Positions 9,846 to 13,157 of a stretch of DNA of 64,000 nucleotides are shown here, piece by piece. Position numbers and translations under genes: made by a program. The stretch is from an uncultured Gammaproteobacteria bacterium (lineage in GTDB: Bacteria > Pseudomonadota > Gammaproteobacteria > Nitrosococcales > Methylophagaceae): positions 124,001 through 188,000 of the forward strand of contig CAJQLA010000006.1 of the NCBI GenBank assembly GCA_905479075.1, in the 5' to 3' direction. The stretch's first letter is position 1. Each line of letters begins with the position of its first letter. Under the pieces are notes generated by a model, which saw nothing but the letters and a program-made list of their open reading frames with translations, was not told the origin of the DNA and did no database searches.

Positions 9846-10754
9846 CTACAACACTTTCTCAATCTCTTCGCGCGGATTAAAAGCCATTTCTTCAGCCATT
9901 TGCTGATAAAGCTGCTTGGCTTTAGCATCTGCAGCTGGCGGTGTCATAATTTGTAAAACGATGATTTGGTCACCAGCGGGCTTGCCAGGCAAGCCTCGTC
10001 CTTTTAAACGCATTTTTTGACCACTCTTAGCATCTGCTGGAATGGTCAAACTGATTTTGCCTGCAAGGGTCGGTACGGTAACTTTAGCGCCGAGTGCCGC
10101 TTCCCAAGGTGCTATCGGTAAATCTAATAATAAGTTTTTATCTTCCACACGATAATGACTGTGTTTGGCAATATTGATTTCTAGAAATAAGTCACCCGCT
10201 TGACCGCCCGCGCCCGCTCTACCTTGTCCAGCAAGTCGAATCTTTTTGCCGGAAGTGATACCTGCTGGGATTTTTACACTGATTGTGCCGGCTTGGTTTG
10301 AACCGCCCGGTCTGCGAATACTTTTTTTAGCGCCGTGAAAAGCGTCTTCTAAAGAAATAGTAATCTTGGCATTAACATCCTCGCCTTGGGCAAAAAAGTT
10401 ATCACCACCCATTCCGCCGCCGCCCATGCCACCACTGAACATACTTTCAAAGAAACTACTAAAGTTGCTGTTGTGGCCACCACCAAATCCAGCATTGCCT
10501 TCCCAACCAGGAGGAGGTGTAAATGACTGACCATGTTGATAGTTACTACCGAACTGATCGTATTGGGCCCTTTTTTCAGGATCTTTTAGGACTTCGTATG
10601 CTTCACCCACTTCCTTGAACTTGGCTTCGGCATTGGCTTCCTTACTGACGTCAGGATGATATTTACGAGCCAGTTTACGATAGGCCTTTTTTAAATCATC
10701 TTTTGAGACATCACGAGAGACACCAAGAATTTTGTAATAATCTTTATATTCCAT
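9846..10754 (-). CDS. cbpA: DnaJ-class co-chaperone of the CbpA type
   Basis: The 302-residue protein starts with a J domain containing the HPD motif (residues 33-35) that stimulates the DnaK ATPase. A Gly/Met/Phe-rich linker follows (about 75-120), then two DnaJ C-terminal beta domains (FHGAKKSI, KIPAGITSGKKIRLAGQG, APWEAALGAKVTVPTL). The cysteine zinc-finger region of true DnaJ is absent, which makes it CbpA-like; it is close to E. coli CbpA in length and ending. No cbpM regulator gene is present beside it. The degQ gene follows directly on the same strand, suggesting a joint protein-quality-control unit. Confidence 0.93.
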   Translation of the reverse strand: MEYKDYYKILGVSRDVSKDDLKKAYRKLARKYHPDVSKEANAEAKFKEVGEAYEVLKDPEKRAQYDQFGSNYQHGQSFTPPPGWEGNAGFGGGHNSNFSSFFESMFSGGMGGGGMGGDNFFAQGEDVNAKITISLEDAFHGAKKSIRRPGGSNQAGTISVKIPAGITSGKKIRLAGQGRAGAGGQAGDLFLEINIAKHSHYRVEDKNLLLDLPIAPWEAALGAKVTVPTLAGKISLTIPADAKSGQKMRLKGRGLPGKPAGDQIIVLQIMTPPAADAKAKQLYQQMAEEMAFNPREEIEKVL

Positions 10755-11004
10755 AAAAAACTGTCAGTACGATATTAATAGAGTGAATAAACAAATGGGG
10801 GCGAAAGTATATATTTTCAATATAAACAAACGATCTTATTTATAAAAATGTGAAGTCAGTAATTTTATTTTTTTAACCATTCAGCTGCCGTTCAGCTTTT
10901 ATTCAGTTTCGCTGATGTATCGTCTTTTACTAGCCAATGGCTAACAGAGACTTTGAGACATGTCTTAGCTGTTTTCTTAGGATCAAGTAAAGAGGGAGAA
11001 ACAA

Positions 11005-12543
11005 ATGAAAAGAAGAACAATAATGAAGCCGGTTTTAACACTGGCAACTGTATCACTGTTAACAGCGTGCGCAACACAACAAGCACCTGGCCCATCAGCG
11101 ATGGACTCATCTGTTGCAGAGCAAACTAAAGCGATGGAAATGCGTAGCCAAGAACTGGATCAACGTGCTGAAGAATTAGCTCGTAAAGAATCAGAATTAG
11201 CGGCACAGCGCATGGGTATTACAGACACAGATTTATTACCACCTGATGCAATAGCGGGTGAATGTTATGCGCGTGTTTGGGTTGAGCCTCAATTTACAAC
11301 GGTATCAAACACTGTTTTAGTGAGAGAAGCTAGCGAGAAAGTCCATACAAGCCCAGCACAATATGAAACGATTACGGAACAAGTATTAGTGAGTGAGGCG
11401 GATTATGAAATTGAAACAATCCCTGCTACTTATAAAACACATACGGAACAAAAATTAGTCGCGGAAGCGTCTAGACTTTGGCGTACAGATCTTGGTAATG
11501 CTGCTCCTGCAAGCCAAGAATTATTACATGCTGCTGCTAATGGTGGTATTGATTTAGATGCTGCAACGCCGGGCATGTGTTTCCATGAACATTATATTCC
11601 TGCTGAATATACTTATGAAAACGAAACAGTCTTAGTTAAAGGGGCTTATGATGTTGTTTCTGTTGCTGAACCTGAATACCGTTGGGTTGAGAAACAGGTC
11701 TTAGTTAAAGAGGCTTCAACTGAGTTGAAAACTATTCCTGCGGTGTATGGTACAGAAACGGAGCAAGTCGTTGATGTTGCTGCCCATACCATTTGGAAAA
11801 AAGGGACAGGACCAATTCAAAAAATTGATGCAGCTACAGGCGAAATCATGTGTTTAGTTGAAGTGCCTGCTACCTACAAAACTGTATCACGTACTATTTT
11901 GCAATCACCTGCGCGTACAGAGCAAGTGACGATTCCAGCAGTATATAAAACGGTTAAAGTTCGCGAGTTAGCAACTGGTGCGCAAGAAGTAAGAACTGAA
12001 GTGCCTGCTGTTTATGACACTGTTAAAGTTCAGAAAAAACTATCCGAAACAGCGTTTGTTTGGCATGAAATACACAATACACATCATCCAAAACAAACTC
12101 GTACAGGTAACAAAATCTGCTTAACAGAAAAACCAGCAGTCTATGAAACAGTGACTACAACCGTAGTTGATACACCTGCGAGTACAGCACGTGTAGAAAT
12201 TCCAGCAGTTTATAAAACTGTAGAAGTCACAAAACTGGTTAAAGATGCTTCAGAAAGTCGCGAAGTGATTCCAGCGGAATACACTGAAGTGGTTTCTCAG
12301 GAACTGCAAGCAGAAGGCTTTATGGAATGGCGTTCAATATTGTGTGAAACCAATATGACCACATCAACCATTGGTGATATTCAACGTGCATTAATGCAAC
12401 GTGATTATAACCCTGGTCGTGTTGATGGCGTTATAGGTTCGGAAACAATGGGTGCAGTGAATGCCTTCCAACGCGATAATGGCTTACCAACAGATAAATA
12501 TATCAACATGGAAACCATTAAAGCATTGGGCGTTGATCTGTAA
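11005..12543 (+). CDS. Putative lipoprotein with 23-residue repeats and C-terminal peptidoglycan-binding domain
   Basis: I do not recognise this as a named gene. The 512-residue product has a lipoprotein signal (SLLTAC, lipidated Cys22) and a short coiled coil at 37-68. Four modules follow, each running from a Cys to a Trp (C87-W159, C192-W264, C283-W353, C372-W442). Each module holds three copies of a beta-rich unit of the form PAxYxTVxxxVLVxxA with an exact 23-residue period. The C-terminus (about 452-512) is a PG_binding_1 domain (IGDIQRALMQRDYNPGRVDG). It is probably outer-membrane anchored and bound to the cell wall. GGGAG lies 6 bases before the ATG. It is monocistronic, with its own terminator. 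Confidence 0.85.
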   Translation: MKRRTIMKPVLTLATVSLLTACATQQAPGPSAMDSSVAEQTKAMEMRSQELDQRAEELARKESELAAQRMGITDTDLLPPDAIAGECYARVWVEPQFTTVSNTVLVREASEKVHTSPAQYETITEQVLVSEADYEIETIPATYKTHTEQKLVAEASRLWRTDLGNAAPASQELLHAAANGGIDLDAATPGMCFHEHYIPAEYTYENETVLVKGAYDVVSVAEPEYRWVEKQVLVKEASTELKTIPAVYGTETEQVVDVAAHTIWKKGTGPIQKIDAATGEIMCLVEVPATYKTVSRTILQSPARTEQVTIPAVYKTVKVRELATGAQEVRTEVPAVYDTVKVQKKLSETAFVWHEIHNTHHPKQTRTGNKICLTEKPAVYETVTTTVVDTPASTARVEIPAVYKTVEVTKLVKDASESREVIPAEYTEVVSQELQAEGFMEWRSILCETNMTTSTIGDIQRALMQRDYNPGRVDGVIGSETMGAVNAFQRDNGLPTDKYINMETIKALGVDL

Positions 12544-12601
12544 TTAAACCTTACGAACTTGGCTACAACTTGAGCGTAGCCAACCAATAGTAAGCAAGTT
12601 G

Positions 12602-12644
12602 AAACTCACTCATGGACTTTGTTTATGAGTGAGTTTTTTATTTT
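12602..12644 (+). terminator. Rho-independent terminator after the repeat lipoprotein
   Basis: A perfect 12-bp stem (12602-12613 with 12625-12636), an 11-base loop and a following T-rich run TTTATTTT form a strong terminator. It lies about 60 bases after the lipoprotein stop and immediately before sixA. Confidence 0.9.
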
Positions 12645-12662
12645 ATGAGGCCGGTATTTAGA

Positions 12663-13157
12663 ATGAAAACACTACATCTTATTCGTCATGCAAAATCAGA
12701 CTGGGGTGACAGATTATTAATTGATAAGCAGCGACCTTTAAGTAAAAAAGGACTTCGTTGTTGTGAAACTATGGGATCTCATATTGCTGCTGCTGGTTGC
12801 GATTTTTCCAATGTGTTTTGTAGTCCGGCTGTACGCGCTCAATCGACTATTGAGGTAATGGTTAAGGCTTTAAATAAGTCTATAGAATGGATAGTAGAAC
12901 CTTCACTCTATACTTTTAGTAGCAATGATTTGTTGACTTGGTGTAGAGAGCTGGATGATAGCTTAGATAATGTCGTTATTATTGGTCATAACCCTGCTTT
13001 AACCATATTATGCAATGAGCTCGCTAATCAAAACATAGTGAATATGCCAACTGCGGCCTACGCTCAATTGTCCATTAATATTACTTCTTGGCAGCAGTTA
13101 AAAGCAGGCTCAGCAAAGCTGAGCACATTTGTAACACCAAAAAGTTTGCTTAGCTAA
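12663..13157 (+). CDS. sixA: SixA-type phosphohistidine phosphatase
   Basis: A 164-residue member of the histidine phosphatase (RHG) superfamily, the size of E. coli SixA, which removes phosphate from histidine-phosphotransfer proteins. The first motif is LIRHAKSDW with the nucleophilic His, then the arginine motif [10 protein letters not shown], and the second catalytic His in [12 protein letters not shown] chose the ATG at 12663 ([11 protein letters not shown]) over the one at 12645, because homologues begin at this strand. Its 3' end overlaps the convergent argH by 8 bases, with no terminator between them. The true substrate here is unknown. Confidence 0.88.

Follow-up and report, generated by a model that had tools for sequence, protein, structure and literature searches.

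The window analysed here, a 64,000-nucleotide stretch from an uncultured gammaproteobacterium of the Methylophagaceae, carries a gene for a 512-residue protein whose central part consists of 23-residue units, twelve in all, arranged in four Cys-to-Trp modules between a putative lipid anchor and a wall-binding domain. Searching with a profile of the unit recovered it in many relatives, by which the repeat family is widespread in the Pseudomonadota; the family libraries searched contain no entry for it. As a tentative generalisation that could well prove too broad, we propose that this undescribed family is built of two equal antiparallel halves closed by a first-to-last disulfide clamp, which would make it a new periplasmic beta architecture in wall-bound and free envelope proteins of the Pseudomonadota.

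Twelve units of constant length between two probable anchors

The features of the gene and its flanks are as follows (positions in the window, strand, feature, basis).

10991..10998, +, likely ribosome-binding site AGAGGGAG, 6 bases 5' of the ATG; read from the sequence
11005..12543, +, family gene, 512 aa; open reading frame and homologues across the full length
11005..11070, +, signal peptide, lipobox LTAC, lipidated Cys C22, then Ala (no Asp at +2); sequence, a crude pattern finding a lipobox in many relatives too
11104..11211, +, helix, residues 34-69, after the lipid anchor; AlphaFold2 model
11263..11481, +, module 1, C87-W159, three 23-residue units; anchor positions, unit profile and module comparison
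11482..11577, +, linker 1, with a short helix 171-179; AlphaFold2 model
11578..11796, +, module 2, C192-W264, three units; basis as for module 1
11797..11850, +, central linker KKGTGPIQKIDAATGEIM, the best-conserved linker, also in two-module gammaproteobacterial relatives; two alignments
11851..12063, +, module 3, C283-W353, three units; basis as for module 1
12064..12117, +, linker 3; alignment and AlphaFold2 model
12118..12330, +, module 4, C372-W442, three units; basis as for module 1
12343..12345, +, fifth mature Cys, C447, proposed partner of C87; Cys table over relatives
12370..12528, +, PG_binding_1 domain, residues 456-508; Pfam E 1e-12, model matching SltB3 (5ao8, Z 10.4, 64 residues, rmsd 1.9)
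12601..12637, +, intrinsic-terminator-like stem of 17 pairs with a T tail; stem search, 2 found against 1.4 expected by shuffling

The aromatic anchors of the units lie at residues 97/120/143, 202/225/248, 291/314/337 and 380/403/426, in four triplets with steps of exactly 23, and the Cys-to-Trp intervals of modules 1 to 4 measure 72, 72, 70 and 70 residues. All of these positions had been given in a preliminary description of the sequence and all of them hold, but a fifth Cys, C447, located after the last Trp, had been overlooked. The mature protein thus has five Cys (C87, C192, C283, C372 and C447) besides the lipidated C22; further Trps, beyond those at the module ends, are W92 and W227. 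The same description spoke of twelve exact repeats with a PAxY motif at each anchor. Their length is indeed exact, with a lag-23 identity autocorrelation of 80 over residues 80-450 where the maximum at any lag in 2000 shuffles was 48. Their sequence is not: between proteins, units from different places of the array are about 20-54% identical, and PAxY is found at 10 of the 12 anchors, units 1 and 5 having EPQF and EPEY.

Both anchors that had been claimed are supported. On the N-terminal side, the signal peptide, lipobox and Cys (MKRRTIMKPVLTLATVSLLTAC) were read from the sequence. Under the rules of E. coli an Ala after the lipidated Cys gives no inner-membrane retention, and the protein would be sorted to the outer membrane. 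On the C-terminal side, PG_binding_1 (PF01471) was the only domain recognised by Pfam in this protein, at 48.5 bits for a gathering cut-off of 23, and its three-helix fold is present in the model (helices 453-465, 479-491 and 502-508; pLDDT about 74-93 per ten-residue block). Not every PG_binding_1 domain binds peptidoglycan; the lipobox, helix and domain together suggest that the window protein does so.

Distribution, layouts and ancestry of the repeat family

An iterated 23-residue profile detected 670 units in 78 proteins and 1 unit in their shuffled versions. Spacings of exactly 23 numbered 444 and no other was below 36, spacings under 20 not being allowed in the count; the next commonest, 43, corresponds to the module linkers. 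A larger set to which weak units were added contained one spacing of 24, in L122. Such constancy of unit length throughout a phylum suggests that the repeat is a structural unit. It also bears on the suspicion that the regularity is spurious, produced by low-complexity coding sequence and devoid of structural meaning, as a composition rich in Val, Thr, Glu and Lys might invite. This idea is already contradicted by conservation, since identity is about 50% across families and orders, Cys, Trp and Pro-Ala are invariant and unit length is almost unchanged across relatives, and we give it practically no weight.

GTDB contigs yielded 14 related loci, including one from Shewanella gelidii with 57% identity. 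Within the same class, 52 of 369 sampled genomes gave a match; in about nine of these it covered the wall-binding domain alone or nearly so, leaving roughly 43 with repeats. A repeat-only model matched 32 of 398 genomes of a phylum-wide sample. Of 385 genomes from another class of the phylum, 155 matched before sorting, mostly through the wall-binding domain only, and the repeats were covered in about a dozen.

No known family accounts for the repeats in the searches performed. The repeat regions alone of eleven diverse members had no meaningful match in Pfam, short relatives lacking the wall-binding domain had none in Pfam or NCBIfam, and a PDB sequence search with the repeat-region profile returned no relative. 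All NCBIfam matches of the window protein were below cut-off. HxsA (TIGR03979) was rejected as its family with a score of 43.1 against a cut-off of 121.65 (E 4.5e-11); in relatives this weak match lies mainly over the wall-binding domain. Scattered weak Pfam, PHROG and PDB matches over the repeats were judged to be chance. A literature search on motif strings, with most subscription journals outside its scope, found no paper, and nothing relevant came from searching on the length of the repeat or on the architecture. The earlier remark that no described family has this layout is therefore borne out as far as Pfam, NCBIfam, PDB sequences and literature text are concerned: none of the libraries searched describes the layout, while the kind of protein, a wall-binding envelope lipoprotein, is familiar. 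A phage or plasmid origin was also considered and rejected, the repeats being unmatched in phages, unconfirmed in viral contigs and present among plasmids only on one 2.8 Mb Methylobacterium replicon.

Over the relatives, the layout 3+3+3+3 occurs in 31 proteins including that of the window, 4+4 in 24, 3+3 in 9 and 2+2 in 4. Four modules of three are specific to the subfamily of the window protein, and the commonest other layout is two modules of four. L058 was counted as 4+3, and L061, L064 and L122 are irregular; degenerate units are probably the cause in all four. The clear exception to equal halves is the 10+6 protein at L143, which adjoins a 4+4 sibling in tandem (G623:C2:242200-244800); its units are near-identical (KPAVYGYRSKRV.IKRGW.ETRT), which suggests a recent unit expansion. 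Tandem pairs of neighbouring 4+4 genes were also observed at L114 and L115, in genomes of another proteobacterial class.

In the four-module form, a given module resembles the module at the corresponding place in other proteins more than it resembles its own neighbours. Between proteins, modules 1 and 2 share 39% identity and modules 3 and 4 share 43%, with 25-31% across the halves. The simplest reading of this likeness is that the ancestor was a two-part protein, each half of which would have doubled later. The central linker GTGPIQKID..TGEIMC is common to the two- and four-module gammaproteobacterial forms. The wall-binding domain is missing from the short alphaproteobacterial forms, and several four-module relatives (L011, L012, L022) have no lipobox by the crude pattern used for counting. 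Since the anchors are not universal and the forms have nothing but the repeat in common, the repeat is the core of the family. Frame-broken copies of the gene were found at L004, L005/L006 and L010; assembly errors may account for some of them. L005 and L006 (OX638335.1) are nearly the same gene copy at two places of a chromosome; both lack two module-2 units and have the same in-frame stop, and this appears to be a decayed, duplicated copy.

Predicted fold and proposed course of the chain

AlphaFold2, run on an alignment of thirteen sequences, gave a pLDDT of 69 and a pTM of 0.27 for the whole protein, at which the global shape is not reliable. With moderate confidence the model repeats one pattern through all units (strand of 12 residues, turn of 2, strand of 7, turn of 2), and it places a helix at 34-69 and predicts the wall-binding domain with confidence. 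The regular beta structure expected beforehand is thus present in the prediction, whereas the beta-solenoid proposed with it is neither shown nor refuted at this pTM. A module folded alone, using 39 aligned modules, reached a pLDDT of 48 as against 69 for the whole protein; a single module may not fold by itself, though missing context could also explain the low value. Foldseek and VIA-align comparisons of the full model with the PDB matched the wall-binding domain only and listed no fold for the repeats; this absence is no proof of a new fold. In four VIA-align rows (4lpq, 5tv7, 4g54 and 6v40) the alignment starts at residues 75-83 and also takes in the wall-binding domain, a hint that the model has the first repeat strand next to this domain. 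Against viral models, Foldseek gave one match with E <0.001 over the repeats (A0A7G8LEA0, probability 0.41, rmsd 42), which is not interpretable.

Coupling analysis of 431-480 unit pairs gave z 3.6-4.0 near the expected hairpin diagonals, a comparable 3.8 for stacking of long strands and 0 for stacking of short strands over a raised background; it separates hairpins from stacking by no more than a slight lean toward the former. The hydrophobic pattern (+3, +7, +8, +9, +16, -4; crude counts) did not separate the fold models.

The cysteines bear on the course of the chain. All five are present in every intact four-module form. In four intact relatives (L058, L059, L063, L075) the middle Cys is gone while the first and last remain, and the 7 intact proteins without the terminal Cys (L057, L062, L067, L070, L071, L072, L080) all have an extra one 4-5 residues before the first. 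This pattern of loss and gain suggests a first-to-last disulfide, C87-C447 in the window protein; the disulfide linkage raised earlier is thus plausible, with this pairing as the one indicated. Combined with halves of equal unit counts, it suggests a chain running out and back with its first and last strands adjacent. Weighing against such packing, it is not directly visible in a model of pTM 0.27, and the equal-halves argument is weakened by the 10+6 relative, the 4+3 layout of L058 and the irregular L061, L064 and L122; equal counts could alternatively mean that one half was duplicated. Following the same reasoning, C192 and C372 would lie at matching depth and might form a second bond, a pair on which the relatives give no information because all intact four-module forms keep the five Cys.

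From the observed unit length, module layout, domain content and distribution, together with the predicted strands, we propose the following packing, disulfides, localisation and role, in a reading that we favour at just short of even confidence. The protein would be a periplasmic outer-membrane lipoprotein in which PG_binding_1 holds peptidoglycan and a rigid beta-repeat body forms the core. Each unit would be a pair of beta-strands, one of about 12 residues and one of about 7, connected through turns of two residues. The chain would run out through modules 1 and 2, turn at the conserved GTGPIQ linker and return through modules 3 and 4, bringing the first strand (C87) to the last (W442/C447) beside the peptidoglycan-binding domain, where the C87-C447 disulfide would tie both. 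A C192-C372 bond might lie at mid height, with C283 left free at the tip. The lipid and N-terminal helix would span the distance from outer membrane to wall, and the repeat body, projecting from there, would most likely stiffen the envelope or serve as a docking surface.

The preliminary description had instead pictured the repeats as an extended rod or beta-solenoid spacer, a fibre bridging the outer-membrane lipid anchor and the wall-binding domain. These anchors do lie at opposite ends of the chain, solenoid rungs need a strictly constant unit length, and the same-position coupling of neighbouring long strands (z 3.8) would fit stacked rungs. The short strands, however, have no such coupling (z 0), the short alphaproteobacterial proteins carry the repeat without lipid anchor or wall-binding domain, and both the first-last Cys pattern and the equal halves argue otherwise; we consider this spacer unlikely. 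Anchoring at two ends is inferred; if the ends of the repeat meet, as the Cys pattern and equal halves suggest, the repeats would be no straight spacer between the anchors and the helix would do the spanning.

Genomic context and relation to known envelope proteins

The gene lies between a dnaJ-like gene (9846-10754, minus strand) and a histidine-phosphatase-family gene (12645-13157), with argH beyond. The slot between dnaJ and argH is kept in close relatives; elsewhere in the genus argH adjoins dnaJ directly or another gene occupies the slot, and by this comparison the family gene is an accessory gene at a fixed site. Its presence or absence there can be followed in the window (10755-13157), L085, L087, L104, L108 and others of L083-L112; in many other genus members a TonB-dependent-receptor-like gene starts in the slot instead. 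Two close relatives carry a lipoprotein-like gene directly after the family gene (L002, 6726-7658, with GNA1162-like and SH3_3 Pfam matches; L004, 6784-7644), at the place of the histidine-phosphatase gene of the window. The terminator-like stem at 12601-12637, far longer than the other one found, suggests a single-gene transcript. A SPOR-domain gene adjoins the family gene at four loci only (L008, L010 and L044 by Pfam, L045 by eye), which weakly fits a wall context.

An operon partner sought around the relatives was not conserved, the gene being usually alone or with changing neighbours. This solitary habit would suit a repeat body acting as a binding platform or assembly unit for an envelope or surface component (a polysaccharide, a protein partner or, via a free Cys, itself), with the anchors only positioning it. 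Such a platform would also agree with the repeat alone being common to all forms and with the odd number of Cys in most of them, which would leave one free for an intermolecular bond. On the other hand there is no conserved partner gene and assembly is not directly evidenced, and we judge this explanation rather improbable.

Compared with known systems, the out-and-back lipoprotein that we favour resembles Pal, with its OmpA-like domain, and Lpp: it has a lipobox, a helical stretch after the lipid Cys and a domain that would hold the wall, and its likely place is between outer membrane and wall. Pal and Lpp differ in using OmpA_C or covalent linkage in place of PG_binding_1 and in having no counterpart of its 360-residue beta-repeat region. 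SltB3 and SleB share its C-terminal domain family, PF01471; the window protein has no enzyme domain, its remainder being the repeat. OspA of Borrelia, also a lipoprotein, is reportedly a single-layer beta sheet of hairpins from which 23-residue hairpin repeats have been engineered. The equal hairpin period is a lead only, and the PDB sequence search found no match between OspA and the repeats.

The stiffness of the Gram-negative envelope is set by proteins that tie the outer membrane to the wall. To these the family described here adds a repeat that is uncharacterised, widely distributed and nearly constant in unit length. Its natural modules of two to ten units make up a series of graded length, and solving a single structure would characterise a domain that the family libraries searched do not contain.
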